Shown here piece after piece: positions 34,713 through 50,690 of a stretch of DNA of 64,000 nt. The stretch lies in the NCBI RefSeq assembly GCF_900114765.1, contig NZ_FOUD01000008.1, positions 62,001-126,000 on the forward strand, written 5' to 3'. Source of the DNA: Halopseudomonas pachastrellae (GTDB lineage Bacteria > Pseudomonadota > Gammaproteobacteria > Pseudomonadales > Pseudomonadaceae). The translations under genes were made by a program, and so were the position numbers. The notes under the pieces are model-generated. The model worked only from the letters and a program-made list of their open reading frames with translations, had not been told where the DNA came from and searched no databases. Position 1 is the first letter of the stretch, and the number at the start of each line of letters is the position of its first letter.

Positions 34713-35603
34713 TTGCTCGGTCTGCTGATCAAACCTCTGGTACGCCTGCATCCACGGGCCAAGGACTACATCGAGCTGATGCGTCTGGATCGCCCGATCG
34801 GCACCTACCTGCTGCTCTGGCCGACGCTCTGGGCGTTGTGGCTGGCCGCCGAAGGTGTGCCGGATATCAGCACCCTGATCATCTTTGTCCTCGGCGTCAT
34901 CCTGATGCGCGCGGCCGGCTGTGTGATCAACGATTACGCCGACCGCGACTTTGACGGCCACGTCGAGCGCACACGCGAGCGCCCGCTGGCGACCGGCCGA
35001 ATCAGTGCCCGTCAGGCGCTGATTGCCTTTGCCATGCTGGTAGGCCTGAGCGGCCTGCTGGTGCTGCTGACCAACGCCCTGACCATTCAGCTGGCCTTTG
35101 TCGGTGTGGGCCTTGCGGCGCTGTACCCCTTCTGCAAACGCTTCACCTTTTACCCTCAGGTGGTGCTCGGCGCAGCCTTCTCCTGGGCGATTCCAATGGC
35201 CTTTGCCGCCCAGGCCGGCACGCTGCCGATGCCCCTGTGGCTGCTGTTTATCGCCAATCTGCTGTGGACCGTGGCCTACGACACCGAATACGCCATGTGC
35301 GACCGCGAAGACGACCTGCGCATCGGCATCAAGTCCACCGCCATCCTGTTTGGCGACGCTGATCGGCTGATCATCGGCCTGCTGCAGGGGCTGACGCTGG
35401 TCTGCCTGCTGCTGGTCGGCGCGCGCTTTGACCTGGGCCTGTATTACTACCTGGGCCTGCTCGGCATGACCCTGGGCTTTGCCTGGCAGCACTGGCTGAT
35501 GCGCGAGCGTGAGCGCCTTGCCTGCCTGCAAGCCTTTCTGTCCAATCACTGGGCCGGCATGCTGGTGTTTATCGGCCTGGCTCTGGACTACGCGCTGCGC
35601 TGA
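34713..35603 (+). CDS. ubiA: 4-hydroxybenzoate polyprenyltransferase
   Basis: 296 residues and about 8-9 TM segments. Prenyl-diphosphate motifs are [15 protein letters not shown] and [12 protein letters not shown]. It attaches the polyprenyl tail to 4-hydroxybenzoate in the inner membrane. It starts with TTG at 34713 behind TGGAGAACTGCC, an unusual but RBS-supported start. ubiC-ubiA is the standard operon. Confidence 0.95.
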
Positions 35604-35651
35604 TGCAGCCCAGCCATGCTGCAACAGACTTGCCCTTGCCGCGTAATACAA

Positions 35652-35669
35652 CTGAAATAAAAGTGTTAT
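35652..35669 (+). promoter_or_regulatory. Candidate Pho box upstream of phoB
   Basis: CTGAAAT-AAAA-GTGTTAT, two 7-bp half-sites spaced by 4 bp, 43 bp before the phoB start. It resembles the CTGTCAT-N4-CTGTCAT consensus with several mismatches, so autoregulation is plausible but not certain. Confidence 0.4.
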
Positions 35670-35711
35670 CTAATCGGCGCATGACTCATATCTGCAACGA
35701 GACGGAAAACC

Positions 35712-36401
<690 letters not shown>

Positions 36402-36426
36402 GGTGTCGCTCAGGGAAGATCACGCA

Positions 36427-36772
36427 AGGGTCTGTTGACGCTTCGTTCACACGCCTGTTGCTGCCTGTAAAGCCGCCAATCAAGGAGCGAGGAGCGTAGT
36501 TTGTTCAGCACATCCCTGTGCTTCACCCCTTCGGGGCTGGCGCGCAAAAACGCTCCCGGCGTTTTTGTGGTTATTCCAAATAAACGACGAGCGACGCAGA
36601 GTGGCGGCTTTACAGGCGCAACCTCGGCGGCCCCACCCGAAGGGCCGGGCCATTTTTCGGCCATGCTGCGTTGTCGGTCCCTTATGTGGAATAACCACAC
36701 TGCACTCCCTCCGCCTTGCCTGGCCGGAAAATGGCCTTCGGCAGGCGAGCGAACGAAACGTCAACAGACCCT
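36427..36772. repeat. Inverted-repeat element between phoB and phoR (MITE-like)
   Basis: The 386-bp phoB-phoR gap is mostly this element. Terminal inverted repeats at 36427-36448 and 36751-36772 match at 21 of 22 positions (AGGGTCTGTTGACG then TTCGTTC). Inside are 16-bp arms GCCTGTAAAGCCGCCA (36463-36478) and their exact complement at 36602-36617, and 12-bp arms GTGGTTATTCCA (36567-36578) with the exact complement at 36687-36698. Short open frames cross it on both strands but look like no protein. No transposase. The right end is 15 bp from the phoR start. Confidence 0.75.
36545..36567 (+). terminator. Terminator-like hairpin inside the phoB-phoR element
   Basis: Perfect 9-bp stem CAAAAACGC / GCGTTTTTG with a TCCCG loop; the right arm carries five T. 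It could reduce read-through from phoB into phoR. Confidence 0.5.
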
Positions 36773-36787
36773 AGATGAGCGTATTCA

Positions 36788-38080
36788 GTGACCAGACATA
36801 GTTTCAGCCGCGTGCTTAGTCAATTGCTGCTACTGGTGCTGGTCTGCCTGCTGGTCGGCTGGATAGTTGGGCAGCCCGCCTGGGTGTTGGTGGTGGGCTT
36901 AGGCTGCTATCTGGCCTGGACCCTGCGCCAGATGTCACGCTTCTACCACTGGTTGAGCAGCCACCCCAATGATCCGCCACCCGAAGCGCGCGGCATCTGG
37001 GGCGAAATTTTCGACAGTATCTACCACATGCAGCGCCGCGACGGCCGCATGCGCGCGCGCCTGCAAGCGGTGATCGACCGCATTCAGGCCTCCACTGCCG
37101 CCCTGCGCGAAGCGGTGGTTATGGTTGACCGTGATGGTCACCTGGAGTGGTGGAACCACGCTGCCGAGCGGCTGATCGGTCTGCGCAGTCCGGACGACAG
37201 CGGCCAGCACGTTGCCAACCTGATCCGCGACCCGCGTTTTATCGAGTACTTCGAGCAGGGCGACTTTCGCGAGCCGCTGGAAATCCCCGCGCCGGCCGAC
37301 ATAAACATCCAGCTGCAGTACGCGATTACCCGCTACGGGCCGGGCGACCGCCTGATGGTGGTACGCGACGTCACGCGGCTGCACAACCTGGAACAGATGC
37401 GTAAGGACTTTGTCGCCAACGTCTCCCATGAACTGCGCACGCCACTAACTGTGGTGGTGGGCTATCTGGAGACCATGCTCGACCTGGACGACGACCTCAA
37501 CCCGCGCTGGAAACGGCCGCTGCAGCAGATGCAGCAGCAGGCCAGCCGCATGCAGGCCCTGCTCAACGACCTTTTGCTGCTGGCGCGCCTGGAAACCTCA
37601 GACAACCCGAGCGAAGACGAGCTGGTCGATGTGCGCCCGCTGCTGGAGCACATCCGCAAGGACGCTGAAGCCCTGTCCGGCGAACGAGGCCACCACATCA
37701 GTCTGCACATTGACGGCAATACCCGCCTGCACGGGATTGAGGGGGAGCTGCGTAGCGCCTTCTCCAACCTCGCCTTCAATGCAGTGAAATACACCGCCGA
37801 TGGCGGCGAAATAACCCTGCGCTGGCACAGCGACGCACAGGGCCAGCACTTGAGCGTGATCGACAATGGCGAAGGGATTGCGCCGCAGCACCTGATGCGC
37901 CTGACCGAGCGCTTCTACCGGGTGGATACCAGCCGCAACAGCACCACCGGTGGCACCGGTCTGGGCCTGGCGATCGTCAAGCATGTGCTGCTGCGCCACC
38001 AAGGCAAGCTGGAGATAAAGAGCGAGGTTGGCAAGGGCAGCAACTTCAGCTGCCACTTCCCGCCTGAGCGGAGCGTCTGA
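36788..38080 (+). CDS. phoR: Phosphate regulon sensor histidine kinase PhoR
   Basis: 430 residues. Two TM helices (about 10-45) with almost no periplasmic loop, a PAS-like domain (about 95-200: EAVVMVDRDGHLEWWNHAAERLIG), the dimerisation box with H214 (NVSHELRTPLTVV), and the HATPase domain with TGGTGLGLAIVKH. It phosphorylates PhoB at low phosphate and is controlled through PstSCAB-PhoU. It starts with GTG at 36788; the upstream ribosome-binding site is weak and lies next to the repeat element. Confidence 0.93.
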   Translation: MTRHSFSRVLSQLLLLVLVCLLVGWIVGQPAWVLVVGLGCYLAWTLRQMSRFYHWLSSHPNDPPPEARGIWGEIFDSIYHMQRRDGRMRARLQAVIDRIQASTAALREAVVMVDRDGHLEWWNHAAERLIGLRSPDDSGQHVANLIRDPRFIEYFEQGDFREPLEIPAPADINIQLQYAITRYGPGDRLMVVRDVTRLHNLEQMRKDFVANVSHELRTPLTVVVGYLETMLDLDDDLNPRWKRPLQQMQQQASRMQALLNDLLLLARLETSDNPSEDELVDVRPLLEHIRKDAEALSGERGHHISLHIDGNTRLHGIEGELRSAFSNLAFNAVKYTADGGEITLRWHSDAQGQHLSVIDNGEGIAPQHLMRLTERFYRVDTSRNSTTGGTGLGLAIVKHVLLRHQGKLEIKSEVGKGSNFSCHFPPERSV

Positions 38081-38085
38081 GCAAC

Positions 38086-39009
<924 letters not shown>

Positions 39010-39339
39010 AAGGGCGTTATCCTCACTTATTAAGCGTACTTTACCCCAGAGAGCCCGCCTGGCGACAACCGACATGCAAATGGCCACCATTGACAGTGTA
39101 ATGACCTGAGCTAACGTAAGAGCTGAGCAGTTACTTTCATCCTGAATCGTCGGACACCCATTGCGGTGTCGCAGTCGTCGATACCCGACACGGAGGTGTG
39201 GGTTTTGACGAATTTCATGCAGTGGAGCGCGGCCGAGCGCCGACCTCCAGACATACCCCAACCCTTGCCTTGTTCCGTTGCGGCCAGCCCGCCGTTGCTG
39301 CGGCTTCCTGCCGCGCCACCACGCTGACGGAGCAACGCC
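39010..39339 (+). other. Control region ahead of the 39340-48048 gene cluster
   Basis: 330 bp without a convincing gene, between divergent transcription units. A TTGACA at 39090-39095 is followed 16 bp later by TAACGT (39112-39117), a weak sigma-70 pair. GACGGAGCAACGCC just before 39340 is a good ribosome-binding site. Nothing else recognisable was seen. Confidence 0.35.
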
Positions 39340-40455
39340 ATGCCAACCCTGAGCCCGACGGCCCTCGCGCCGTCACAGCGGGTCGTGGTCGAATCCATCG
39401 GCTCCGCCCGTCCGGCCCTCGCTGGCTTACTGGCCAGCCAGTTAGGGCTGCCAGCCAATCAGGTCGCCAACGCCCTGTACAAGGCCCCCTCGGTTCTGCT
39501 TGAAGCGCTGCCGCAGGAGCAGGCCTGTGGGCTGGCCAACATACTGCAACAGGCAGGTCTGTCGGTGCGGGTCGAACCCAACAACGTGCCCCGACCTGCA
39601 GCGGCAGCCACCTTCGACATTGCCCTTTACGTCAGCGACGTGGCGGACCTGCCGGCCTGCTGCGAGCGCCTTGCAGGCTTCCTTGGCTGTCTCCCGGTCG
39701 CCGTGCTGGGCCTGCTAAGCAGCCCGCCCGGCGTCATCATTGGTGAGGTCAGCGCCGCCACCTGCGCCGCGCTGGAACAACAGCTTGAGGGCCTCGCCGC
39801 AGAGCTGGTCTGCTCGCGACGCGATCAGGCGCGCTACCAGCTGCTGATCGAACGCGACCCCGGCCCCTCGCTCGACAGCCTGCTGCATGACCTGCGCCAG
39901 CTTGGCCTGACGCCAGACCCGCACACGGGTCAGCCGCAGGGCACGCTGGATCACACCAGTGCCCAGCAGCTGTGGCGCCGTCATCAGGCCGGCGGTGGGC
40001 TGCGCCTGCTCGACACCGCCTTTTTGCGCTACGACCTGTCACTGGAGGCAGTGGATGCGGGCAGCCAGACCGACCGCCTGCCCGAGCTCGCCGGCCTGCC
40101 GGCCGAGCTGATCGACTGTGTACTGGAAAACCTGCCGGTGGTGGTCGAGGAAGGCGTAGCCCATAGCGCCCTGCAAGACCGGCTGCAGCGCTGGCAAGCC
40201 GCCGGCATGCCGGTACGGCCGCAGGTCGCCAGCCTGCGCCGCTGCCGCTTGCGTATACCGGCCGGCAGCCAGCTTGCGCCCGCGCTGGGCCTGCTGCAGC
40301 AAAGCGGCCTGCTGCCGCCGGACAGCCCTGTGCCACGTCTGCCGTGGCAATCCCCCGTGCTGCACGGCGAGCTGCTGCCACGCTGGCTGCAGCAGGGCCT
40401 GGAGCAACTCGACATCCCCATCGAATGGCAGGAACTGGATCATGAACAGCACTGA
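39340..40455 (+). CDS. Unrecognised protein with two L7/L12-like domains; first gene of the novel cluster
   Basis: 371 residues, not assignable to a known function. Residues about 14-80 match the ribosomal L7/L12 C-terminal (ClpS-like) pattern: LASQLGLPANQVANAL, KAPSVLLEALPQEQA, LQQAGLSVRVEP. Residues about 247-295 repeat it: AGLPAELIDCVLENLP, VVVEEGVAHSALQDRL, AAGMPVRPQ. The 91-165 segment may be a third, more diverged copy. No signal peptide or TM. GGAG lies 8 nt before the ATG. Its stop overlaps the next gene by 14 bp. The fold suggests a binding or adaptor role, which is inference. Confidence 0.8.
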   Translation: MPTLSPTALAPSQRVVVESIGSARPALAGLLASQLGLPANQVANALYKAPSVLLEALPQEQACGLANILQQAGLSVRVEPNNVPRPAAAATFDIALYVSDVADLPACCERLAGFLGCLPVAVLGLLSSPPGVIIGEVSAATCAALEQQLEGLAAELVCSRRDQARYQLLIERDPGPSLDSLLHDLRQLGLTPDPHTGQPQGTLDHTSAQQLWRRHQAGGGLRLLDTAFLRYDLSLEAVDAGSQTDRLPELAGLPAELIDCVLENLPVVVEEGVAHSALQDRLQRWQAAGMPVRPQVASLRRCRLRIPAGSQLAPALGLLQQSGLLPPDSPVPRLPWQSPVLHGELLPRWLQQGLEQLDIPIEWQELDHEQH

Positions 40456-41020
40456 CAAGGCGCACCAGTTGCATCTGGGTATCGCCGAACAGGGCAAGGT
40501 GCTGGCCTTGGCCGGGCGCCACGCCGATGCCCTGCAGCATTATCAAGAAGCCCTGCGCATGGCGGTCAGCAGCCGCGCACCGGAGGTGTTCTTCCGCCAC
40601 TACACCCAATGCGTGATGGAAAGCCTGGAGCTGAGCGGCGAGCTGGACAGCGTACTGCGTTACTGCAACGAGGCCGAGGCGCACTACGCCCGGCTGGACT
40701 CACCGCTGCCACTGGTCGCCCGCGACCGCGCCGAGAACCTGCAGCGCCGTGGCTGCATCCAGCTGCGCCAGGGCCAGCTTGCTGACGCACTGGCCAGCCT
40801 GCAGCAGGCCATCGCCCTGGTGCAGCCACCGGAACTGCCGTTGGCCCGCGCACTAGTCGGCTGGGCCGCCCGCGGCCTGAGTATCGGTGAGCGACAGCTG
40901 CGCGACGCGCAGCAGCGCCATGCGTATTTCATTGTCCGCAAGGGGCTGGTCGAGCCCAAACGGGCCATCCCCCTGCCGCCCGAGCGCCTGCGCAGCGCCC
41001 ACGCGGCCTCACTTGTTTGA
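40442..41020 (+). CDS. TPR-repeat protein of the novel cluster
   Basis: 192 residues from MNSTDKAHQLHLGIAEQGK. TPR-like helix pairs are visible at about 10-45 (GKVLALAGRHADALQHYQEAL) and about 95-130 (RRGCIQLRQGQLADALASLQQAI), with a helical segment between. No signal peptide. TPR proteins usually hold complexes together. The ATG lies inside the end of the preceding gene (14-bp overlap), indicating translational coupling; the next gene is 16 bp away. Confidence 0.82.
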   Translation: MNSTDKAHQLHLGIAEQGKVLALAGRHADALQHYQEALRMAVSSRAPEVFFRHYTQCVMESLELSGELDSVLRYCNEAEAHYARLDSPLPLVARDRAENLQRRGCIQLRQGQLADALASLQQAIALVQPPELPLARALVGWAARGLSIGERQLRDAQQRHAYFIVRKGLVEPKRAIPLPPERLRSAHAASLV

Positions 41021-41036
41021 ATAACAGGAGCCAGGC

Positions 41037-42761
41037 ATGAGTGACTACAACGGTCTTCGCCCCGGACAGGTGCTGGCCGACGCCAGCGTCGCCGACTTTA
41101 TCTCCAGCCTCGGACTCGGCATCGCCCGCGCCCAGCAGGCGCTGGATACCAACTCCATCGAGCAACTGGACGCCTTTATCCAACCGATACCCGGGCTTGG
41201 CGGCAAGACGCTGATCGAGATGGGCTTCAGCCCCGCCTTCTACCACTACCAGCACGCCGACATCAGTTGCTCGATGAACCTGCACCTGCGGGTGGAAGAG
41301 TCTACCGGCGTCGACTTCGGCATCAACGGCGCCTACAACAACGCCGAAACCAGCAACGACGACAGCGACAGCAGCTCGTCGAGCAGCAGCAGCGGGAGTC
41401 GCAGCGAAACCCGTAACCGTGAGGCCAGCCTGCAAATCACCGCGCAGTCGGCCGGCGAGGTGCGCATCAACGACAATCGCGTGGCGCTCAGCGGCGCCGA
41501 CCTGGAGAGCCGTCTGGCCAGCCTGGTCGATGGCCTGGCCGGCAATGCCGACATCAGCGCCGTGGCCTTCGAGCGCAGCGAAACCCCGATCAACCCGACC
41601 ACCGATGCCAGCCCGCAGCAAGTCATCGTTTCACCCAATGCCGTCGCCTTCCGCGCCTTTGGCTACGCGGGCGGCGTGATTCGCATTGCCAGCAACAGCG
41701 ATACCACCTTTGTCGCCAACCCCGACACCAGCCTCAGCGTCACCCGCTCCAACAGCGTGGCCAACTACGCTCGCAAGGTAAAAACCGCCTTCGAGGATGC
41801 CGGCTTTGAGGTGACCCACTGGCCGCCGGGCGAGCCAATTCATGAAGTGCTGTTTGATATCGACCGTAACCATATCCGCGCCGATCAGCGCGACGCCCTG
41901 CAGGAGAACGCGCAGATGCTGGCCCGCGCCGGCGTCCCCTTTCGCCTGGTTGGCCACGCCGACGCGCCGGCCAGCCCCGGCTACAACCTGGGGCTGTCGC
42001 AGCGCCGGGTGGACGAGGTCAAACGTCAACTGATTGCCAACGGGGTGGACCCAGCGCAGATCACCTCTGCGGTCGGCGAAGGCGAAGCCGCCGCCAACCC
42101 CGGCGGCGCCGAAGGTGTCCCGCATGATCAGGCCCACCGCCGGGTACAGATTCTGCTGGATGTCGACCTGCTGGTGATCGAGGGCGCCGATGGCCAGGTG
42201 ATCAGCGGCGTCGAGCCCGACCGCCGCGATCACGCCGAGTCAGCCAGCAACGGCTGGATTCACACCTTTGATGCCAACGACATGAGCGGTGTGAACGGCA
42301 AGCAGGTCAGCGCCGAGGGCCGCAGTTGGACGCTGTCAGGCAGCGCGGTGGACGGCCACGCCGCCGACAGCCCGCAGGCCTTTGCAAAAAACCTGGCCAA
42401 CAGCATCAATGCCGACGAGGGGAGCCAGGTCAGCGCCTCCGCCGGCGGCGCGGTCTGCAACCTGGCGCGCAAGAGCGACCCGATACAGCTGCACCTGATC
42501 AGCACCTCCAGCCGCGACCTGCGCATGACCAGCAGCGAGAGCATCACCATCAACGAGCAGTTTGCCAACAGCAGCAGCGAGCGCGAGACCACCCGCCGCA
42601 CCGGCAACAGCACAGTCGCCTTTGGCGCCACCTTGGATGTCCGTCATGCCAAGCAGTTCGAGCTGGATGTCACCGGCAACTCGTCGATCTCCGCCCGCCT
42701 GGTGTCGATTCCTGCGCCGCCGGAATTCCTCGACACCATCCGCAGCTATCTGGGGAGCTAG
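41037..42761 (+). CDS. Cluster paralogue with an inserted OmpA-like domain
   Basis: 574 residues. N-terminal half-domain (about 15-85): FISSLGLGIARAQQALDTNS and LIEMGFSPAFYHY, shared with the genes at 42765, 43275, 43994 and 47389. A poly-Ser stretch (112-119) follows. An OmpA-like domain lies at about 268-376 (VLFDIDRNHIRADQRDAL, GHADAPASPGYNLGLSQRRV, HRRVQILLD). The last ~50 residues (VAFGATLDVRHAKQFELDV, SIPAPPEFLDTIRSYL) align with the C-terminal half of the other paralogues. OmpA-like domains bind peptidoglycan, yet no signal peptide is visible. RBS AGGAG. Confidence 0.85.
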   Translation: MSDYNGLRPGQVLADASVADFISSLGLGIARAQQALDTNSIEQLDAFIQPIPGLGGKTLIEMGFSPAFYHYQHADISCSMNLHLRVEESTGVDFGINGAYNNAETSNDDSDSSSSSSSSGSRSETRNREASLQITAQSAGEVRINDNRVALSGADLESRLASLVDGLAGNADISAVAFERSETPINPTTDASPQQVIVSPNAVAFRAFGYAGGVIRIASNSDTTFVANPDTSLSVTRSNSVANYARKVKTAFEDAGFEVTHWPPGEPIHEVLFDIDRNHIRADQRDALQENAQMLARAGVPFRLVGHADAPASPGYNLGLSQRRVDEVKRQLIANGVDPAQITSAVGEGEAAANPGGAEGVPHDQAHRRVQILLDVDLLVIEGADGQVISGVEPDRRDHAESASNGWIHTFDANDMSGVNGKQVSAEGRSWTLSGSAVDGHAADSPQAFAKNLANSINADEGSQVSASAGGAVCNLARKSDPIQLHLISTSSRDLRMTSSESITINEQFANSSSERETTRRTGNSTVAFGATLDVRHAKQFELDVTGNSSISARLVSIPAPPEFLDTIRSYLGS

Positions 42762-42764
42762 GCC

Positions 42765-43244
42765 ATGAGCGAGACCACCACTGTCACCCGCTCGCTGGTC
42801 AGCGCACCCCTACCGCAGATCATCGAGCGCCTGGGCCTGTCGATCGCCCAGGCCCAGGCCGCACTGGACAACAACTCGGTCAAGGTCGCCCAGGCCATGG
42901 CCGAGACGCCGGTCGAGCTGGGCGGCCAGACCTACAACCTGCTGACGCTGGGCTTTACCCCCAGTTTCTACGCGTTCACCGAGGCCACGGTGGAGGCCAA
43001 GCTGTCGTTCAGTATGTCTGAAACCACCGAAACCTCGGTATCGGCCGGGGTCACCGCCAAGGTCAATTACGGCGTCGTCATGGTCGCGGCCAGCGTCGAT
43101 GTCTCCTACGCACGCAAGTTTTCTGTCTCCGCCGAAGGGTCCAGCTCGATTGCCGCTCGTCTGGTATCGCTGCCTGCCCCTGAAGCCTTCAATGAAGTCC
43201 TGCGGCGCCTGTACGACGACGGGCTGCCCGGAGCCGACAACTGA
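42765..43244 (+). CDS. Minimal paralogue of the novel cluster (159 aa)
   Basis: The simplest form of the repeated domain. Helix 18-45 (IIERLGLSIAQAQAALDNNS), LLTLGFTPSFYAF at 59-71, a strand pair with EAKLSFSMSE and VDVSYARKFSVSAEGSSS, and a C-terminal VSLPAPEAFNEVLRRLY helix. No signal peptide, TM segment or catalytic motif. Only 3 bp separate it from the previous stop, and GGGAG precedes it. Architecture recalls DUF2589-type proteins (helical N-terminus, beta pair, C-terminal helix), a weak resemblance from memory. Confidence 0.83.
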   Translation: MSETTTVTRSLVSAPLPQIIERLGLSIAQAQAALDNNSVKVAQAMAETPVELGGQTYNLLTLGFTPSFYAFTEATVEAKLSFSMSETTETSVSAGVTAKVNYGVVMVAASVDVSYARKFSVSAEGSSSIAARLVSLPAPEAFNEVLRRLYDDGLPGADN

Positions 43245-43274
43245 TCCGTCGATATCCCAACAAGGAGCAACACC

Positions 43275-43982
43275 ATGAGTATTGGACGAGAGCTGTTGAA
43301 CGTGCCGATGGGCGACATGATTCGCCAGATGGCCTTCGCCATCGCCGAGGCGCAGGTCAAGCTGGACGAAAGCTCGATCGAAGTCGCCGAGATGATGGGC
43401 GGCCTGCGCACCGTATACGACGACGAGGGCAATATCGCCTTTGACGATAGCCGCATCTTCTTCGGCCATGAGTATATGACCCCCTCCGAGGCCGACTCCC
43501 TCGTCGCGCTTGATCCGGGCTACGGCGAGATCGTCACCGCCGCCAAGAAGCACCAGACCGACAACGGCCAGATTCGCGTGCCCACCCGCCTATCCATGCT
43601 GGAGCTGGGCTTTACCCCGGTGTTCTACAACTTTGTCGACACCATCATCGAGGTGAAGATCGCCATCAAGATCACCCGTAGCAGCGAGTACAGCCGTACC
43701 TCCAGTAACAAGACCACCAAAAACAGCGCCAGCAAGAAGGGCAGCGGCCTGTTCGGCAAGGTCTTCGGTGGCCGCGATAGCAACCGCTCCAGTGTCTCAA
43801 CCAGCCAGGTGGACGCCAGCTACGCCTCCAAATACTCCTACTCTGCAGAAGGCTCCAGCCTGCTGCGCACCAAGCTGTCACCCGTGCCGCCGCCGCCGAT
43901 CCTCGAAGAGCGCATTCGCGCGATGATGGAAGAGGCCGAAGCCCGCCGGCAACCGGCGCCCGCGCCGGAAGATGACGACTGA
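43275..43982 (+). CDS. Paralogue of the novel cluster with long acidic insert (235 aa)
   Basis: Starts MSIGRELLNVPMGDMIRQM and has AFAIAEAQVKLDESS. A ~60-residue insert (about 45-105) rich in acidic residues precedes MLELGFTPVFYNFVDTIIE. A Lys/Ser-rich loop (about 135-172) separates the two beta segments. The tail is SYASKYSYSAEGSSLLRTKL and PPPPILEERIRAMMEE. Closest relative is the next gene, with near-identical MLELGFTP and VDT-IE segments. RBS AAGGAGCAACACC. Function unknown. Confidence 0.83.
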   Translation: MSIGRELLNVPMGDMIRQMAFAIAEAQVKLDESSIEVAEMMGGLRTVYDDEGNIAFDDSRIFFGHEYMTPSEADSLVALDPGYGEIVTAAKKHQTDNGQIRVPTRLSMLELGFTPVFYNFVDTIIEVKIAIKITRSSEYSRTSSNKTTKNSASKKGSGLFGKVFGGRDSNRSSVSTSQVDASYASKYSYSAEGSSLLRTKLSPVPPPPILEERIRAMMEEAEARRQPAPAPEDDD

Positions 43983-43993
43983 GGAGACCCGCC

Positions 43994-44524
43994 ATGAGTG
44001 TCGGATCAGAACTGCTCAACGCGCCCTTCCCGCTGATCGTGCGCAACCTCGGCGTGGGCATTGCCGAGGCCCAGTTGGAGCTGGACCTGGTGTCGCTGCG
44101 CATCGCGCGCATGATGGCGGGCTTCCCTACCGGCAGCGACGAAGAGGAAGACGGCCCCGAGGCCCCCTACAAGGTCGAGTTCAGCAACGGCAAGTCCTAC
44201 AGCCTGCTGGAGCTGGGCTTTACCCCCAGCTTCTACCAGTTTGTCGACACTGTGATCGAGCTGAAGCTGTCGATCAGCATCAACAGTGAGCGCAGCTCGA
44301 CCCACAAGCGCAGTCAGGTCAAATCCAGCGCCAAGGGGGTGGGCTTGCCCTTCTTTGCCGCTGGCTCGGTCAGCGCCAGCTCGGTCAGTGCCAGCTACGC
44401 CAGCAAGTACCAGTATTCGGCCGAAGGCAGCTCGGTGATGCGAACCAAACTGGTGCCGGTGCCCGCGCCGGCGATTTTGGAGGAGCGCATCCGCGCCCTG
44501 ATCGACGCCGAGGCCGACGAATGA
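43994..44524 (+). CDS. Paralogue of the novel cluster (176 aa)
   Basis: MSVGSELLNAPFPLIVRNLG, GIAEAQLELDLVSLRIARMM, LLELGFTPSFYQFVDTVIE, a short Ser/Lys loop (about 98-128), then SASYASKYQYSAEGSSVMRT and VPVPAPAILEERIRALID. It is the best match to the family consensus and likely a recent duplicate of the 43275 gene. RBS GAGGAGACCCGCC, 11 bp after the previous stop. Its stop overlaps the next start (ATGA). Confidence 0.83.
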   Translation: MSVGSELLNAPFPLIVRNLGVGIAEAQLELDLVSLRIARMMAGFPTGSDEEEDGPEAPYKVEFSNGKSYSLLELGFTPSFYQFVDTVIELKLSISINSERSSTHKRSQVKSSAKGVGLPFFAAGSVSASSVSASYASKYQYSAEGSSVMRTKLVPVPAPAILEERIRALIDAEADE

Positions 44525-45273
44525 GCCGCAAGACCTGGCGCGATCTGGCCCGGCAACAAGGCAGCCCCCAGCCTGCGCCCGCCAGCCCCGACCTGCAGCA
44601 GCTGGCAGGTCAGGTGCCCGGCTTGCAACGCCTGCTTGAGCAGCGTGACACCCTGCAGCAGCAGATGCGCCGCCTGGGCGGTCAGGGTGATGACAGTGCC
44701 CCTGCCGACCGACGGTATCCGGTAGCCAGCGCCAGCGAGCGGCGCGCCGAGCACGCCGCCTGGGAGCGCCAGCGCGATGGCCAGAAGGCGCCGGCAGCGC
44801 TGGCACAGGTGCGCCAGGCAGCGGGAGCCGCGCGCCGCTGGCAGCAACAACGCGAACGTCAGCAACAGCAGGCCGGCAGTCGTGCAGGCCAACAGGCGCA
44901 GCAGCAACGCGCACTGATGCAGCGGCTGGACGAGCGCGTCGAGCAGGCCCGCAGCTGCGCCCGTGAGCGACCGCGCGAGACCCTTGCCGAGCCGCTGCTG
45001 CGCCCCCTGCACGACCGCCTGGACGGCGCCTTTCAGGCGCCCCCAGCCGTCACCTCCCTGAGTGACTTCGACAACCGTTACCAACGCCGCCAACACCGAC
45101 TGCTGGGCGTGGACACCGGCTCGCTGGAAAACCTGCAGGAGCGCGCAGAGCAATTGGCCGAACGCCGCCAGCAGGCGCGCCGGGACGCGCGTCAGGCCGA
45201 GCGCCAGCAGGAACGACAACAGGCCCGCGCCGACGAACGCCGCCGCCAGCGCCCACACCTGAGCACCGACTGA
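44521..45273 (+). CDS. Gln/Arg-rich coiled-coil protein of the novel cluster
   Basis: 250 residues, dominated by Q, R, A and E. Helical coiled coil probable at about 80-145 (RRWQQQRERQQQQAGSRAG) and 195-245 (LQERAEQLAERRQQARRDA). The N-terminus (MSRKTWRDLARQQGSPQPAP) and a central DFDNRYQRRQHRLLGVDTGS segment are not low complexity. Strongly basic; might bind nucleic acid or act as scaffold, which is inference. Translationally coupled to the previous gene by ATGA. Confidence 0.8.
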   Translation: MSRKTWRDLARQQGSPQPAPASPDLQQLAGQVPGLQRLLEQRDTLQQQMRRLGGQGDDSAPADRRYPVASASERRAEHAAWERQRDGQKAPAALAQVRQAAGAARRWQQQRERQQQQAGSRAGQQAQQQRALMQRLDERVEQARSCARERPRETLAEPLLRPLHDRLDGAFQAPPAVTSLSDFDNRYQRRQHRLLGVDTGSLENLQERAEQLAERRQQARRDARQAERQQERQQARADERRRQRPHLSTD

Positions 45274-45288
45274 TCAAGAGCCCTGAAC

Positions 45289-46017
45289 ATGACCCAATCC
45301 AGTAAATTCGTCGCCAACTCGGTCGAGCAGATACTGCTCGGACTGGCCCGCGGTCTGCGCGACGCCCAGGCCGTGCTGGACGACCTGCCCCCGACCGACG
45401 CCTTTGGCCGGCCCCAACCGGGCTATCACCTGCCGTACCTGGACTTCAACATCAAAGCCACCGTGCAGGCCCAGCTGGACGCAGCCGAGGCCAGCAGCGG
45501 CATGAGCGTACTGCCCGGCACTCTGCGCAAGGCCCGGCCCATCCCGCAGCTGCAGCTCGCCCTGCCCAACCCCAAAAAGGCCCCGAGTGAGGCCAGCGGC
45601 AATACCGAGCTGATCAGCACCTTCAGCGGCCGGCTGGTGTCGGTACCGCCCAGCAACGCGCTGCCGGTGTTGCGCCTGGCCGCACGCAGCCTGGTCAAGA
45701 AGCCGGCCAAGCCTAGAGAACAGCAACTGCTGGTCACCCTGTCCAACAGCGCCGGCCAACTGATCAGTGACGCCGCCGTCGAGCTCAATCTGGATATCGA
45801 CGCCAGCCTGGCGCTGAGCGAGGCCGCCGGAGCCAATGGCCTGACCGCCGAGCAGCTGCGCAGCGGCCTGCAACTCGGCAGCCGGCTGCTGCTGACCGAC
45901 CAGCAAGGCAGCGCCAGCTGCGACCTCACGCTGGCTGCCGGCCTGCCCGCCAGTAGCCAACTGGTGCTGCTGGTCAGCAGCGGCGCCACCCTGACCCAGC
46001 TCATCCTGACCACATAG
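45289..46017 (+). CDS. Diverged paralogue with C-terminal beta domain (242 aa)
   Basis: The N-terminal helix ILLGLARGLRDAQAVLDDLP keeps the family pattern, but the GFTPSFY motif is replaced by GYHLPYLDFNIKATVQAQL. A GRLVSVPPSNALPVLRLA segment (about 117-135) corresponds to the family tail. The last ~95 residues (LLVTLSNSAGQLISDAAVEL ... LTDQQGSASCDLTL) look like an Ig-like beta sandwich. No signal peptide. 15 bp after the coiled-coil gene. Confidence 0.8.
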   Translation: MTQSSKFVANSVEQILLGLARGLRDAQAVLDDLPPTDAFGRPQPGYHLPYLDFNIKATVQAQLDAAEASSGMSVLPGTLRKARPIPQLQLALPNPKKAPSEASGNTELISTFSGRLVSVPPSNALPVLRLAARSLVKKPAKPREQQLLVTLSNSAGQLISDAAVELNLDIDASLALSEAAGANGLTAEQLRSGLQLGSRLLLTDQQGSASCDLTLAAGLPASSQLVLLVSSGATLTQLILTT

Positions 46018-46027
46018 GATTCACCCC

Positions 46028-47377
46028 ATGCAATGGAGCATTACCGGCACCCTCTTTGAGCCCGACGGCAAGGCCGCCAGTGGTCAAGTGGAAATTCAAA
46101 CCTTCGAGCTGGCTCGCCGCCAGTGGCGCAGCGTTGCCAAGGCGCGACTGGATGCCAAGGGTAACTTCGCGATCAACCTGAACCTGGGCGACGGCCCTCA
46201 GCTGCCCGCCGTACGCCTGTGCGAAACGGTCAAGGCCAGGGAGACGCCTCGCGTACTGGCCGAAGGGGCGCTGGTGCAGGTTGAACCCGGCAAGCGAGTC
46301 CACCTGGCCTTTGGCGACATTGAGCGGCTGGGCGATCAGGCCGTTGCCCGGCGCGAGCGCAGCGCGCCCTTCAGCGCCACCGACGACTACCTGCTGGCAG
46401 GCACGCCCCGCGCCGTCGCCCAACTGACCGTCAACATGGCCGCGTTGCGGGTGAACCCGCAGCTGGTTACCCGCGCTCAGCCCGCCAGTACGCAGCTCAA
46501 GACCCAGGCAGCCTTGAGCAAGCAACTGGAAGCGCAATCGGTTGAGCTGAACCAGAAGGTGCTGCTGATCAACAATCTGGAGCGCGAGAAGCAAACCCAA
46601 GCCAACGAGCTGAAACAGGCGCAGCTGAAAATCAGCACGTTGGAAAAGCAGCTCAAGGACAAGCCTGCCGCTGCCGGCAACGAACAGATTGAGCTGGCGA
46701 CCCAGCAGATCCGCCTGCACCTCAACGAGCAGATTCTCAAACAGGCGACCGAGTTCGAGCTAAAAGAAAGCGATCTGCAGCGCACCCTCAACCTGCGCAA
46801 CCAGGAAATAGCGCAATTCTCCGAGCGCATCCGCGACCTCACCAAGGCCTCCCGTGAGGCAGCCGAGGAAGCAGCTCGCGCCCGGGAGGAAAGCGAAGAG
46901 CTGAAAGCGCAGCTCGATACCCAGGTCGATGCCGATCAGCTGTACGGCAACATCGCCCGTCAACTGCAACAGGCGCAGACCCAGCTCAGCAAGGATGGCG
47001 TGCCCTATCGCCTGGGCCGCGTCTCGCTCAACCTCAAGACCCTGGTCACCGGCAATAGCCTGACCCTGCCGACGCTCTCCGACCTGAAGAACAAGGGCAG
47101 CGCCGGCCTGTTCACCGATGTCGCGCTGGAATATCTGCCGGAGATGGACGACGGACCCGACACCGCCCCGGCCGGTATTACCGTGCCGGACTTCAGCGAC
47201 CTGACCGAAACCCTCGCCCGCCGCCTGGCCCGCGACCTGGGCCTGGAGCTGGAGGCGGCCTACCAGAGTGTCGGCGACAGCGGCCAGCCGGTCGGTCAGG
47301 CCGTGCGCCAGTTGCCTGCCAAGGGCAGTGAAGTGGCGCTCGGCGAACGTGTACTGGTGGTATTCACTCAAACCTGA
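46028..47377 (+). CDS. Beta domain - coiled coil - PASTA-like protein of the novel cluster
   Basis: 449 residues. N-terminal beta domain about 1-95 (ITGTLFEPDGKAASGQVEI, transthyretin-like), a long coiled coil about 155-310 (LEREKQTQANELKQAQLKI), a short YRLGRVSLNLKTLVTGNSL segment, and a C-terminal PASTA-like repeat at about 383-449 (ITVPDFSDLTETLARRLAR, VRQLPAKGSEVALGERVLV). PASTA modules bind peptidoglycan or beta-lactams when extracellular; no signal peptide or TM is visible here. The repeated family domain is not evident. Confidence 0.82.
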   Translation: MQWSITGTLFEPDGKAASGQVEIQTFELARRQWRSVAKARLDAKGNFAINLNLGDGPQLPAVRLCETVKARETPRVLAEGALVQVEPGKRVHLAFGDIERLGDQAVARRERSAPFSATDDYLLAGTPRAVAQLTVNMAALRVNPQLVTRAQPASTQLKTQAALSKQLEAQSVELNQKVLLINNLEREKQTQANELKQAQLKISTLEKQLKDKPAAAGNEQIELATQQIRLHLNEQILKQATEFELKESDLQRTLNLRNQEIAQFSERIRDLTKASREAAEEAARAREESEELKAQLDTQVDADQLYGNIARQLQQAQTQLSKDGVPYRLGRVSLNLKTLVTGNSLTLPTLSDLKNKGSAGLFTDVALEYLPEMDDGPDTAPAGITVPDFSDLTETLARRLARDLGLELEAAYQSVGDSGQPVGQAVRQLPAKGSEVALGERVLVVFTQT

Positions 47378-47388
47378 AGGACAGCCCC

Positions 47389-48048
47389 ATGCCCACCATC
47401 AAGGAACTGGTCAGCGACGTCATGGCAGCGCCTATCGGCGAGCTTATTGCTGCCGTCGGCCAGGGCGTCGCCGATGCCCAGCAGGCGCTGGACCGTGGCT
47501 CGCTGGCGCAGATACTGGAGATCTACAGCCACGCCGACAGCGACGAACTCAAGCTGCTGCAGCAGATCGGCTATCAGCCCACCTTTTACGCTCTGCCGGA
47601 AACCACCGGCGAGATTCAGGTCGCTCTCAGCCTCAGCGGACAGCAGACGCCGGCGGCCACCCCTGCGCCAAAGCCGTTGCAGACCGTCTCGCTGGCCAGC
47701 CACCTGCGCACCAGCCTGCCGACCGCCCGCGTGTACGCCGCCCCGGTGAACGCCGACCTGACCAACCGCTACGGTTTTCAGGCAAACGCAGCGGCCAAGA
47801 TTCAGTTCAAGATCGTGCCGATACCGGCGCCGGGCCAGGCCAGCGACATCCGTGTTGCCCCCAACCTGACCGGCATGCAGCTGGCGGCCGCCGAACAGCT
47901 CGGCAACCAGCTGGACATCAGCCTGGAGGTCGTCGACCAGCAGGGCAACCCGGTGTCTGACCCCGCGTCTACCGGCAAGATCAGCGCCCAGCAGCCAGAG
48001 GCAGGGGAAATCATGCTCGCCGGCGCGGTCATACAGGTCGAGCTGTAG
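47389..48048 (+). CDS. Paralogue of the novel cluster with PASTA-like C-terminus (219 aa)
   Basis: MAAPIGELIAAVGQGVADAQ with QALDRGS and LLQQIGYQPTFYALPET give the family N-terminal half. RYGFQANAAAKIQFKIVPIP gives the tail with the PIPAPG motif. Residues about 154-219 are PASTA-like (VAPNLTGMQLAAAEQLGNQ, ISAQQPEAGEIMLAGAVIQV). Last gene of the ten-gene run; a repeat remnant and a terminator follow. No signal peptide. Confidence 0.82.
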   Translation: MPTIKELVSDVMAAPIGELIAAVGQGVADAQQALDRGSLAQILEIYSHADSDELKLLQQIGYQPTFYALPETTGEIQVALSLSGQQTPAATPAPKPLQTVSLASHLRTSLPTARVYAAPVNADLTNRYGFQANAAAKIQFKIVPIPAPGQASDIRVAPNLTGMQLAAAEQLGNQLDISLEVVDQQGNPVSDPASTGKISAQQPEAGEIMLAGAVIQVEL

Positions 48049-48054
48049 TTAGGG

Positions 48055-48068
48055 CCAACAGACCCTAG
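48055..48068. repeat. Remnant of the phoB-phoR element end
   Basis: CCAACAGACCCTAG shares CAACAGACCCTAG (13 nt) with the right terminus of the element at 36427-36772. It lies 6 bp after the stop of the last cluster gene; no matching left end was seen nearby. Confidence 0.5.
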
Positions 48069-48081
48069 TGGACGCGCATAA

Positions 48082-48109
48082 AAAACCCGCTCGGCAACGA
48101 GCGGGTTTT
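48082..48109. terminator. Bidirectional terminator closing the novel cluster
   Basis: 12-bp perfect stem AAAACCCGCTCG / CGAGCGGGTTTT with a GCAA tetraloop, between the convergent cluster and alcohol dehydrogenase genes. Confidence 0.88.
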
Positions 48110-48160
48110 GCGTCTTAACGGTCGGGCGCAGGCCCGACCAATCAACTCAGCGCGGAGGCA

Positions 48161-49315
48161 TCACAGCTCGCCGCGCAGCGCCTTGAGGAAGATCGCCTGA
48201 TACTGCGCGGCGTCATAACGCTGGGGGTTGGTCTTGCCGGCCACGTCCTTGGCCGACATGGCACCGATGGTCTCGGCTTGGGCGTCATCGATGTTGATGT
48301 CCGCCAGGGTGTGCGGAATACCCAGCTCGGCGCGCAGATCCAGAACCCAGTCCAGCATGCCATCGAAGTTCTGCTTGGGCAGATCAAGGTAGCGAGCAGC
48401 GCGCGCCATCTCGTCTTCAATCACCGGGCGGTTGGCTTGCAGCATGTACGGCATGACAATCGCGTTCAGCAGACCGTGGTGCGCGTCATAAACGGCGCCC
48501 AGGCTGTGGGATACCGCGTGAATGCCGCCCAGACCACGCTGGAAGGCCACCGCGCCCATGCTGGAGGCCACCTGCATCTGCAGACGGGCGTCGATATCGT
48601 CGCCCTGCTTGGTTGCGCGCGGCAGGAAGTCCTTAACCAGACGCATGCCTTCCAGCGCGATACCCTCGGCCATCGGGTGATATACCGGGGCGCAGAACGC
48701 CTCGAGGTTATGCGCCAGTGCGTCCATACCGGTCGCAGCGGTCAGCTTGGCCGGCAGGCCAACGGTCAGCTCAGGGTCCAGAATCACGATGGCAGGCACC
48801 ATCTTCTGGTGGAAGATAACGCGTTTGACGTGGCTTTCATCGTCGGTGATAACCACTGCCTGGCCAACTTCCGAGCCGGTACCGGCGGTGGTGGGCACAG
48901 CGACAACCGGCAGCATCTTGCTGGCATCTACGGTGCCGGGGCCTGCTTCCCACAGCGTGCACTCCTGGTGTGCAACCAGTGCGATAGCCTTGGCGGCATC
49001 AATGGCAGAGCCACCACCGAAGGCAATCACGCCGTCGTGCTGACCCGCTTTCAGCGCAGCGACGCCGTCGGCCACGTTGCCACCGGTGGGGTTGCCCTTC
49101 ACGGCACTGAACAGACCGGCCTGCAGGCCCGCGTCACGGCACAGCTGCAGCGAGGCCTCAACCATCGGCAGTGCGGCCAGGCCAGGGTCAGTCACCAGCA
49201 GCGGAGACGTCATGCCCAACTGGCGGCAGGCTTTGGGCAGCTCACTGATACGACCTGCCCCCACGCGCACGGCGGTGGGGTAGTGCCAGTTCATGCTGTA
49301 GGACTTGATCTCCAT
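48161..49315 (-). CDS. Iron-containing alcohol dehydrogenase
   Basis: 384 residues, family III ADH. NAD-binding GVIAFGGGSAIDAAKAIAL, PTTAGTGSEVG, and metal ligands in ATGMDALAHNLEAF and GGIHAVSHSLGAVYDAHHG. It oxidises a primary alcohol or reduces an aldehyde; substrate unknown. The start at 49315 is behind GGAGATACC. A well-separated upstream region contains an inverted repeat at 49451-49494. Confidence 0.92.
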   Translation of the reverse strand: MEIKSYSMNWHYPTAVRVGAGRISELPKACRQLGMTSPLLVTDPGLAALPMVEASLQLCRDAGLQAGLFSAVKGNPTGGNVADGVAALKAGQHDGVIAFGGGSAIDAAKAIALVAHQECTLWEAGPGTVDASKMLPVVAVPTTAGTGSEVGQAVVITDDESHVKRVIFHQKMVPAIVILDPELTVGLPAKLTAATGMDALAHNLEAFCAPVYHPMAEGIALEGMRLVKDFLPRATKQGDDIDARLQMQVASSMGAVAFQRGLGGIHAVSHSLGAVYDAHHGLLNAIVMPYMLQANRPVIEDEMARAARYLDLPKQNFDGMLDWVLDLRAELGIPHTLADINIDDAQAETIGAMSAKDVAGKTNPQRYDAAQYQAIFLKALRGEL

Positions 49316-49450
49316 GGTATCTCCGAATCTCTCAGGTTTTTGTAGGTGCAGGCGCATTGAGGCCCGCATTCTTGTATGAATCTTCGGCTGCGGGCAGACA
49401 CAAGATACAAAATGAACTTATGTCCCGCAATGTACGCATATTTGCGACTT

Positions 49451-49494
49451 TGGTGCTGACACTCTGCGACAAATGAGCACTTGTCAAAGCACCA
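49451..49494. promoter_or_regulatory. Inverted repeat upstream of the alcohol dehydrogenase gene
   Basis: Arms TGGTGCTGACA (49451-49461) and TGTCAAAGCACCA (49482-49494), equal apart from a 2-nt insertion, separated by 20 bp. It lies 136-179 bp upstream of the dehydrogenase start and 87-130 bp upstream of the divergent cytochrome start. Spacing suits an activator-binding site; the regulator is unknown. Confidence 0.4.
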
Positions 49495-49580
49495 TGGCCG
49501 GTCCATCTTGATGAAAGCAACAGCACCTTCACAACGACACAAGCAGGACCACCTGCAACCATGGCCCGTGAGGAACAACG

Positions 49581-49892
49581 ATGAAACGCTTTATGATCAC
49601 TGCCCTCAGCGCTGCCGCGCTGCTCAGCTCTGGCTCCCTGTTCGCCACAGACGGCGAGACCCTGTACAAAACCAAGGCCTGCGTAGCCTGCCATCAGATC
49701 GACACCAAGGTAGTCGGTCCTTCCTACAAGGAAGTAGCAGCCAAGTATGCCGGGCAGGACGGCGCGGTGGAAACCGTGGCCGACCACATCAAGAATGGTG
49801 TCTCCGGAATTTGGGGGCCGATTCCCATGCCTGCCAACCAGGTAACCGACGAAGAAGCCCGAATTCTGGCCGAGTGGGTGCTCAGCCAGTAA
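49581..49892 (+). CDS. Cytochrome c551-type monohaem cytochrome
   Basis: 103 residues with a signal peptide (1-22, cleavage near LFA). Haem motif CVACH and the Met ligand region [13 protein letters not shown]. The pattern [20 protein letters not shown] closely follows Pseudomonas c551 (NirM). A periplasmic electron carrier. No nitrite reductase genes are nearby, so it may serve another oxidase, a peroxidase or the neighbouring dehydrogenase. RBS GAGGAACAACG. Confidence 0.93.
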
Positions 49893-49906
49893 TAACAAAC
49901 CTCCAA

Positions 49907-49936
49907 CAAAAAACCCGCCGTTTGGCGGGTTTTTTG
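49907..49936. terminator. Bidirectional terminator between cytochrome c551 and phoU
   Basis: 13-bp perfect stem CAAAAAACCCGCC / GGCGGGTTTTTTG with a GTTT loop between convergent genes. Confidence 0.9.
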
Positions 49937-49952
49937 TCAGCTGAAGCAGACC

Positions 49953-50690
49953 TTACTCGTCGGCCGCGCTGCTTCCCTTGACCTCGGCTTCCATGCGCTT
50001 GAGGCCAATATGACGCACATCGGTGCCCTTGACCAGGTAGATCACATGCTCGGCTACGTTGCGCGCATGATCGCCCACCCGTTCCAGTGAGCGCAGCACC
50101 CAGAGGATGTTGAGCACACGGCCGATGGAGCGCGGGTCTTCCATCATGAAGGTGACCATTTCACGCATGGCGGTCTTGTACTCCTGGTCCACCGCTTTGT
50201 CTTCGCGAGCAACCGAGAAGGCCTGCTCGGTGTCCATGCGGGCGAAGGCATCCAACGCCTCCTGCACCATGCGACGCACGTGGTGGCCAATATGGCGGCA
50301 CTCGACATAGCCGCGCGGCGCCTGACCGTCTTCGGCCAGATCCCGCGCACGCTTGGCGATCTTCGAGGCTTCGTCACCGATGCGCTCCAGATCGACAATG
50401 ATCTTGCTGATGCTGACCACCAGACGCAGGTCACTGGCTGCCGGCTGACGCCGCGCCAGGATGCGCAGGCACTCCTGGTCGATATCCAGCTCCATCTGGT
50501 TGATGGCGTCGTCCTTCTCGCGCACCTGCTGCGCCAGCTTGGCATCGCCCTCGATCAGGGCAACGATGGCGTCATTGATCTGTTTCTCGACCAGACCGCC
50601 CATCTCCAGCAACTGGGTGCGAATTTCCTCAAGTTCGTCATTGAACTGCTGGGAAATATGCTGATTGAACAATTCTTTATCTGAGGGCAT
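49953..50690 (-). CDS. phoU: Phosphate signalling/transport regulator PhoU
   Basis: 245 residues with two PhoU three-helix repeats. RIGDEASKIAKRARDLAEDG and LERVGDHARNVAEHVIYLVKG carry the conserved E/D metal-binding motifs. It links the Pst transporter to PhoR and represses the regulon at high phosphate. Last gene of the pstC-pstA-pstB-phoU run, 17 bp after pstB. Confidence 0.96.
   Translation of the reverse strand: MPSDKELFNQHISQQFNDELEEIRTQLLEMGGLVEKQINDAIVALIEGDAKLAQQVREKDDAINQMELDIDQECLRILARRQPAASDLRLVVSISKIIVDLERIGDEASKIAKRARDLAEDGQAPRGYVECRHIGHHVRRMVQEALDAFARMDTEQAFSVAREDKAVDQEYKTAMREMVTFMMEDPRSIGRVLNILWVLRSLERVGDHARNVAEHVIYLVKGTDVRHIGLKRMEAEVKGSSAADE

Follow-up and report, generated by a model that had tools for sequence, protein, structure and literature searches.

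Several described systems offer points of comparison for operons built from copies of one structural unit. Gas-vesicle loci encode the paralogs GvpA/J/S/M; tailocins and extracellular contractile injection systems combine leaderless structural paralogs with a wall-binding module and have lysis enzymes nearby; Pal and OmpA are exported. The DUF2589 family (PF11655) is of unknown function; for the DUF2589-related Archaeoglobus genes AF0414-AF0417, one published report describes an increase during growth with lactate. Here we analyzed a cluster of ten genes, A to J, on the plus strand at positions 39340-48048 of a 64,000-nucleotide stretch of Halopseudomonas pachastrellae DNA (contig NZ_FOUD01000008.1, positions 62,001 to 126,000; the window). 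Like gas-vesicle operons it holds several paralogs of one building block, but the module has a long hairpin in our model of protein D. Its likeness to tailocins is one of logic, and differs in that no sheath, tube, baseplate, or AAA+ family was assigned to any of the ten proteins. Protein C contains a Pal/OmpA-like domain, but as an insert in a protein without a visible signal peptide.

A first-pass annotation of the window had compared the cluster with gas-vesicle and tail-tube loci. That analogy gained no support; Pfam, NCBIfam, and PHROGs assigned no such family to any of the ten proteins. No match to GvpA or another Gvp family, and none to a sheath, tube, or baseplate family, appeared in Pfam or NCBIfam at E = 1, and Phage_sheath_1 had no match in 8 of the 12 carrier genomes tested, the window's own included. 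A known defense system was rejected as well, since PADLOC returned background only (best hit LmuB at E = 2e-4, in the I coiled coil; for C, ZorB/MotB at 0.027). Profile searches of the PDB (with A, C, D, F, and H), the family libraries, and PADLOC yielded no description of the ten-gene set, nor did the literature by titles and abstract openings (subscription papers and preprints lay outside this search).

A ten-gene cassette in distant bacteria

We scanned genome contigs with protein F; the best 80 of 81 confirmed matches define at least 79 distinct loci. They occur in Alpha-, Beta-, and Gammaproteobacteria, Bacteroidota, Planctomycetota, Acidobacteriota, Gemmatimonadota, SAR324, Polyangia, and a Latescibacterota bin, that is, in eight phylum-level groups as labeled in the records, several of which are metagenome bins. 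The 79 loci rule out a lineage-specific orphan operon. The closest named record found was Pseudomonas abyssi MT5, with a 100% identical F protein; identity to the window protein ranges from 38 to 91% in the 37 other rows of an alignment of F proteins (A1). L016 and L017, being near-copies, were left out of the family profiles and most alignments.

Among the 68 loci whose cluster genes all lie more than 300 bp from either end of the stretch, 56 have all ten genes in order on one strand, and the median gap is at most 31 bp at each of the nine junctions. In five of the 12 exceptions F was scored as D (L082, L085, L087, L089, L091); three have no detectable G (L066, L072, L084), two no I and J within the stretch (L079, L086), one only C-G (L048), and one is rearranged (L093). 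G evolves fast, yet its position is mostly kept, and a profile detected it in 72 of the 79 loci. Gene order is thus kept more than chance would allow. The first-pass annotation had proposed a candidate undescribed system and named a failure of the neighbors to co-occur across genomes as grounds against it; they do co-occur, and the genes form an autonomous, co-conserved unit. Because order is kept across eight phylum-level groups, selection on the cluster as one machine is likely strong. A search for a universal eleventh gene found none: the largest shared flanking family, found in 13 loci, is signaling-like and probably generic. Since no flanking gene is widely shared, the unit looks complete in ten.

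Within the genus, 8 of 37 genomes carry F, counting the window's own, and none of 59 does in the rest of the family and order; a D profile found it in 1 of 398 Pseudomonadota (the window's own genome) and 2 of 198 Bacteroidota, one being a center chosen for carrying the cluster. The response-regulator gene that adjoins the cluster is present in all 37 genus genomes. In 30 genus loci, the next conserved gene after this regulator is A in 7 (in L156 about 1.1 kb away), an iron-containing alcohol dehydrogenase (Fe-ADH) in 17, cytochrome c/phoU in 4, and unclear in 2. When the window was compared with the empty sites L146 and L147, flank similarity ended at 39010 and resumed at 48160. In a tree of 67 loci (genes A, B, D, E, and F; a quick method without bootstrap, with long branches flagged, and with 12 of the 79 loci left out, eight by name and four for want of one of the five genes), loci clustered by phylum, but Gemmatimonadota were placed with Halomonas, and Paracoccaceae beside Marinobacterium and Saccharospirillum, both with strong support in the Shimodaira-Hasegawa-like approximate likelihood-ratio test (SH-aLRT). 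These placements are most simply read as horizontal transfer, binning errors and paralogy being the alternatives. The ten-gene block is a discrete cassette, probably a horizontally spread, self-contained operon. A viral origin of the set found no support: scans of viral contigs with A5, A1, and an F protein from SAR324 yielded no confirmed relative, and no match came from a degenerate pattern or from tblastn of F and D against phages.

The open reading frames reported by the first-pass annotation were re-derived (B starts at 40442), and its nine spacers (-14, 16, 3, 30, 11, -4, 15, 10, and 11 bp) were reproduced exactly from the gene coordinates. The features are collected in Table 1. The hairpin directly after J likely marks the end of the operon, judging from its sequence. 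Rfam gave no match in window positions 35000-50000, and a scan for sigma-70-type promoters found no promoter-like site and predicted none upstream of A. On the other side of the cassette, phoB-like, phoR-like, and response-regulator genes lie at 38086-39261 (minus strand) and 35712-38080. As phoR and the regulator occur whether or not the cassette is present, this neighborhood is probably incidental.

Table 1. Features of the cassette, in window coordinates
Feature	Position	Strand	Basis or remark
Inserted cassette	39011..48159	+	Stretch without similarity to two cluster-less relatives (L146, L147), in which response-regulator and Fe-ADH genes adjoin
Gene A, 371 residues, L7/L12 C-terminal-domain-like	39340..40455	+	First repeat by profile match; further repeats by eye
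Gene B, 192 residues, TPR protein	40442..41020	+	Pfam TPR_2, E = 6e-8
Gene C, 574 residues, paralog module whose two long-strand regions are separated by a large insert	41037..42761	+	Profile paralogy, alignment A4
OmpA/Pal-type domain inside C, residues 272-353	41850..42095	+	Pfam OmpA, E = 5e-14; PDB Pal 2hqs, E = 1e-21
Gene D, 159 residues, minimal paralog, remote DUF2589 relative	42765..43244	+	hhalign match to DUF2589 proteins, E = 1e-4
Predicted long beta-hairpin of D, residues 67-92 and 113-137, tip loop between	42963..43175	+	AlphaFold2 model; distal half of low confidence
Gene E, 235 residues, paralog	43275..43982	+	Profile comparison
Gene F, 176 residues, paralog	43994..44524	+	Alignment A1, profile comparison
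Gene G, 250 residues, basic, coiled-coil-like, fast-evolving	44521..45273	+	Profile match in 72 of 79 loci; K+R 47, D+E 33
Gene H, 242 residues, divergent paralog, Ig/Big-like C-terminal half by eye	45289..46017	+	H-J and H-C profile matches, alignment A3
Gene I, 449 residues: beta domain (by eye), coiled coil, probable divergent module, PASTA	46028..47377	+	Pfam PASTA, E = 1e-7
Gene J, 219 residues: paralog module and PASTA (residues 158-218)	47389..48048	+	Pfam PASTA, E = 4e-9; D-J, E = 7e-25
Terminator-like hairpin with short T run, directly 3' of J	48086..48109	+	Sequence; a hairpin scan gives this stem on the minus strand only

Variants of the cluster were also seen. Divergent clusters in L049, L076, L086, L093, and L094 have extra E- or F-like paralogs before A or after J, and in L093 the cluster genes are split over two strands. 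On a Sphaerotilus sulfidivorans plasmid (L116, 8643-11422), five small hypothetical genes in a row may be a reduced version; the second is weakly like F (34% over 65% of F). In a Bacteroidota genome (G490:C3:4199-5240), the D profile finds only two adjoining module genes (E = 9e-36 and 2e-18).

The paralogous module and its associated domains

The domain that the first-pass annotation saw in C, D, E, F, and J, and more weakly in H, was recovered by all-against-all profile-profile comparison: D-E, 3e-33; D-F, 9e-47; E-F, 7e-67; C-D, 5e-28; D-J, 7e-25; and, more weakly, H-J, 1e-8; H-C, 2e-5; and D-H, 4e-4, with reversed-profile controls of these eight pairs at E-values from 0.034 to 0.69. By this comparison C, D, E, F, H, and J are one family, and six of the ten proteins firmly carry the module. 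A, B, and G are separate from it, their best E-values being 0.01 (A-J, reversed 0.33; the weakest separation) and 0.028 (B-H). The C-terminal half of I probably carries a seventh, divergent copy, because the I-J match (E = 2e-9; 2e-10 in a second comparison) begins about 26 residues ahead of the PASTA domain of I. A D-like helix precedes the matched region, and the D-I match is not significant by itself (E = 0.031). The six or seven paralogs look structural.

We modeled D with AlphaFold2 from a 100-row alignment of D, F, and J proteins (model m3fed02463559; predicted local distance difference test score [pLDDT] 68.6, predicted template-modeling score [pTM] 0.51). In the model, a helix of 32 residues and a small hairpin accompany two long strands (67-92 and 113-137) and a C-terminal helix, and the base is well scored. 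A model of F (pLDDT 59.8) resolved helices only and was not used. Strand 1 is amphipathic by alternation of polar and apolar residues (127 of 20,000 shuffles were as strong). The insert of C with its OmpA domain falls between the regions of the two long strands, which is the predicted hairpin tip (alignment A4); the C proteins of L066, L072, L084, and L092 do not have the insert. When the D fold was compared by VIA, the best Z was 3.4. Many of the best, insignificant matches were long-hairpin proteins that form rings or barrels (iota Ib, CDTb, and PA pore stems, FliF beta-collar, SpoIIIAG, lysenin, P68 lower collar), with unrelated proteins mixed in. The aerolysin-like, PA-like, FliF, and SpoIIIAG matches, all below significance, were kept as leads only. 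In BFVD, one model, of the viral protein A0A516MP19, resembles D (E = 2e-6, template-modeling score 0.53).

Among the ten proteins, Pfam cut-offs were passed solely by the TPR repeats of B, the OmpA domain of C, and the PASTA domains of I and J. The five proteins D-H reached no Pfam or NCBIfam cut-off (D has one NCBIfam match below it, E = 3e-4), and PHROGs added nothing firm. The ten-gene set as a whole is a concrete target for structural work. As a single sequence, A matches Pfam weakly, but a profile of 39 A proteins (A2) retrieves L7/L12 C-terminal domains from the PDB (1ctf, E = 1.5e-6, profile positions 8-78); hence the L7/L12 reading of A in the first-pass annotation was right. Its coiled-coil/PASTA protein, I, does contain PASTA, and it had overlooked the second PASTA domain, in J, and the OmpA domain of C, which together make its case for wall-binding parts stronger than claimed. 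The coiled coil of I gave only weak PHROGs matches to tape-measure families (best E = 0.001). In agreement with the annotation, Pfam recognized no catalytic domain in any of the ten proteins, and a simple hydropathy scan found no signal peptide or convincing transmembrane helix (top 19-residue window 1.79, in A).

Searched with a profile of 38 C proteins, the OmpA domain is closest in the PDB to Pal, and Pal/OmpA work has assigned peptidoglycan-binding roles to residues of the OmpA motif. The motif N..L...R is present in 32 of 38 C proteins; its Arg is there by construction of the search and was not counted as evidence. The preceding Asp is kept in 29 of these 32 and is Ser in L020, L033, and L054. 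Three operons whose C is without the OmpA domain continue into large uncharacterized genes (L072, 14284-18062; L084, 14313-19819; L092, 14048-17161). In L092, the second large gene has at its end a stretch that is OmpA-like by eye but gives no Pfam hit, as though the wall module had been relocated to a gene of its own.

Peptidoglycan enzymes at the cluster edges and possible functions

Peptidoglycan enzymes or binders lie at the cluster edge in 15 of the 79 loci, 12 of them with a recognized catalytic domain if L034 is counted. The edge genes encode CHAP with PG_binding_1 (L019, L082), Amidase_2 with SH3 (L020), Amidase_2 fused to CobU (L021), PG_binding_1 with M15 (L063) or with a partial M74 domain (L072), PG_binding_1 (L034, L069, and L084, where a first gene is just below the cut-off and a second above it), and SH3 with a transmembrane segment seen by eye (L032); those of L022, L024, L025, and L058 were assigned by homology. 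In L049, an extra paralog, a GH108 endolysin, and a holin of the gene transfer agent type (GTA_holin_3TM, E = 2e-17) follow J on the same strand; after the holin an M28-like peptidase comes next, and no phage gene was recognized by eye in 4.4 kb. In 11 of the 15 loci the gene shares the strand of a cluster gene or its extra paralog, from which at most 71 bp separate it. Judged by eye, the edge enzymes have no signal peptides. Since they belong to unrelated families and, for the loci in the tree, to different branches, recruitment looks repeated. The Amidase_2-CobU (cobinamide kinase) fusion, found after J in L021, L022, and L024, is an odd domain combination.

In the nearest neighbors, 128 genes lying no more than 1.2 kb away, the most frequent Pfam family is PG_binding_1 (8 genes), and Amidase_2 (5), CHAP (3), and SH3_3 (3) also occur. 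In a control of 140 more distant neighbors, the 25 most frequent families include none of the four; this control drew 140 of 243, by chance without the second peptidoglycan-binding genes of L072 and L084, and as only 25 families were listed, as many as two genes of a family may have escaped notice. Peptidoglycan enzymes and binders as recurrent neighbors of the cluster are new here, and together with the holin, the DUF2589 link, the cassette boundaries, and the hairpin model they add to the first-pass annotation.

Leaderless paralogs, peptidoglycan-binding modules, and repeated capture of endolysin-like genes, once with a holin, fit a cytosolic assembly released or deployed by lysis. Our preferred, still tentative, reading is that the operon encodes a particle or tube of multiple beta-hairpin paralogs that assembles in the cytosol and acts on peptidoglycan, with lysis enzymes serving for its release or deployment, following a tailocin-like logic with unrelated parts. 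The product could be a particle, a ring stack, or a tube in which C, D, E, F, H, J, and probably I would co-assemble side by side, every subunit contributing a basal helix and a long beta-hairpin. Exchangeable modules would sit at the hairpin tips and C-termini: OmpA and PASTA, which may bind peptidoglycan, and an Ig-like one. Assembly or docking may be the role of A (L12-like), B (TPR), and G (basic coil). As none of the ten proteins has a signal peptide, the wall would be reached through lysis of the producer or from outside on a target cell, perhaps with help from endolysin-like enzymes whose genes lie at the cluster edge or at other sites in the genome. A bolder claim, possible though rather doubtful, is that the cluster represents a new class of nanomachine: a non-contractile, phage-independent, hetero-oligomeric beta-hairpin tube or particle with up to seven paralogs, interchangeable peptidoglycan-binding tips, and endolysin-type release or deployment, to which DUF2589 clusters would be small cousins.

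A number of observations weigh against a lysis-released assembly. No assembly has been observed. No peptidoglycan gene was seen at the edges of the window cluster or in the 64 other loci (some stretches end there), and 14 of the 15 loci with such genes have no holin, the one in L049 being the only one. L069, L084, and L032 have a binding or SH3 domain without a recognized catalytic one, the CHAP match of L034 is below the Pfam cut-off, and the CobU-fused amidase of L021, L022, and L024 may belong to the host. Of the 38 aligned C proteins, 6 lack the OmpA motif (the insert-less ones of L066, L072, L084, and L092, plus L049 and L076). The D model is of middling confidence, with pLDDT below 50 at the hairpin tip; the alternation in strand 2 is not significant (3,795 of 20,000 shuffles were as strong), and Foldseek of the model against the PDB gave no match at E <= 0.001.

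The best-surviving alternative, which we consider unlikely, is a trans-envelope conduit or ring for secretion or uptake, in which the hairpins would stand upright as a beta-barrel or collar that OmpA and PASTA modules tie to peptidoglycan, with export by a route independent of signal peptides. Pal-type and PASTA domains are known from the periplasm or cell surface, and the ring- and barrel-forming proteins among the best fold matches of D suit such a structure. Those matches, however, stay at VIA Z <= 3.4 with unrelated proteins among them, none of the ten proteins has a signal peptide, a convincing transmembrane helix, or an ATPase domain, and no flanking partner, membrane or other, is widely shared. 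Less probable again is an intracellular scaffold or organelle of gas-vesicle-like logic, reusing the OmpA, PASTA, and L12 folds structurally, with no peptidoglycan contact. The cytosolic appearance of all ten window proteins, the multi-paralog logic, and an OmpA motif that six C proteins dispense with are consistent with it; the motif Asp kept in nearly all motif-bearing C proteins and the recurrence of peptidoglycan enzymes at the edges speak against it. An anti-phage or abortive-lysis system, whose paralogs sense infection or form a pore while edge enzymes lyse the cell, is improbable: very patchy, cassette-like spread, cross-class and cross-phylum tree placements, and the holin and endolysin of L049 would be in keeping with it, but the cluster has no sensor, nucleotide-binding, nuclease, or other effector domain, PADLOC gives coiled-coil-type and MotB-type background only, and most loci have no lysis gene seen at the edge.

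Protein D and the DUF2589 family

In hhalign, D matched an alignment of DUF2589 proteins with E = 1e-4 over 152 collinear columns (probability 57%, reversed control 0.055). For E and F the E-values were 0.0026 (reversed 0.0069) and 0.02 (reversed 0.031), not convincing alone. Conversely, a DUF2589 profile run against 7,842 open reading frames gave 16 matches (E = 0.004-0.03), 15 to D and one to F of the cluster, some being the same gene in overlapping loci. The PF11655 Pfam model itself matched none of the ten window proteins (at E = 1) or 38 F proteins (at E = 10), and nothing in the window's own genome, in a search in which no control gave a match. On these profile matches, D is a remote relative of DUF2589, the sole remote sequence relative found. 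By eye, the two share an AQ-containing helix, a long strand, a variable loop, a second long strand, and a C-terminal helix, and in both several related genes lie in a row. DUF2589 loci differ in that about three such genes were seen per locus, with no other cluster family found beside them except generic OmpA and coiled-coil matches in L121.

The DUF2589 loci (L117-L124, L114) are often trios of DUF2589, a helix-plus-strand protein without a Pfam family, and a third gene or a further DUF2589. The second protein matches D and DUF2589 weakly in hhalign (E = 0.0024 and 0.0027, reversed about 0.5). Peptidoglycan and lysis genes may offer a functional lead for the DUF2589 superfamily as well. In L172 (7914-10588) and L122 (7056-11537), DUF2589 genes occur with an M15-type endolysin and, by eye, a patatin-like gene; in L172 the DUF2589 gene follows these two and adjoins contractile tail genes (sheath, tape measure, baseplate hub). 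In the Bacteroidota locus L121, the DUF2589 trio adjoins a CHAP gene.

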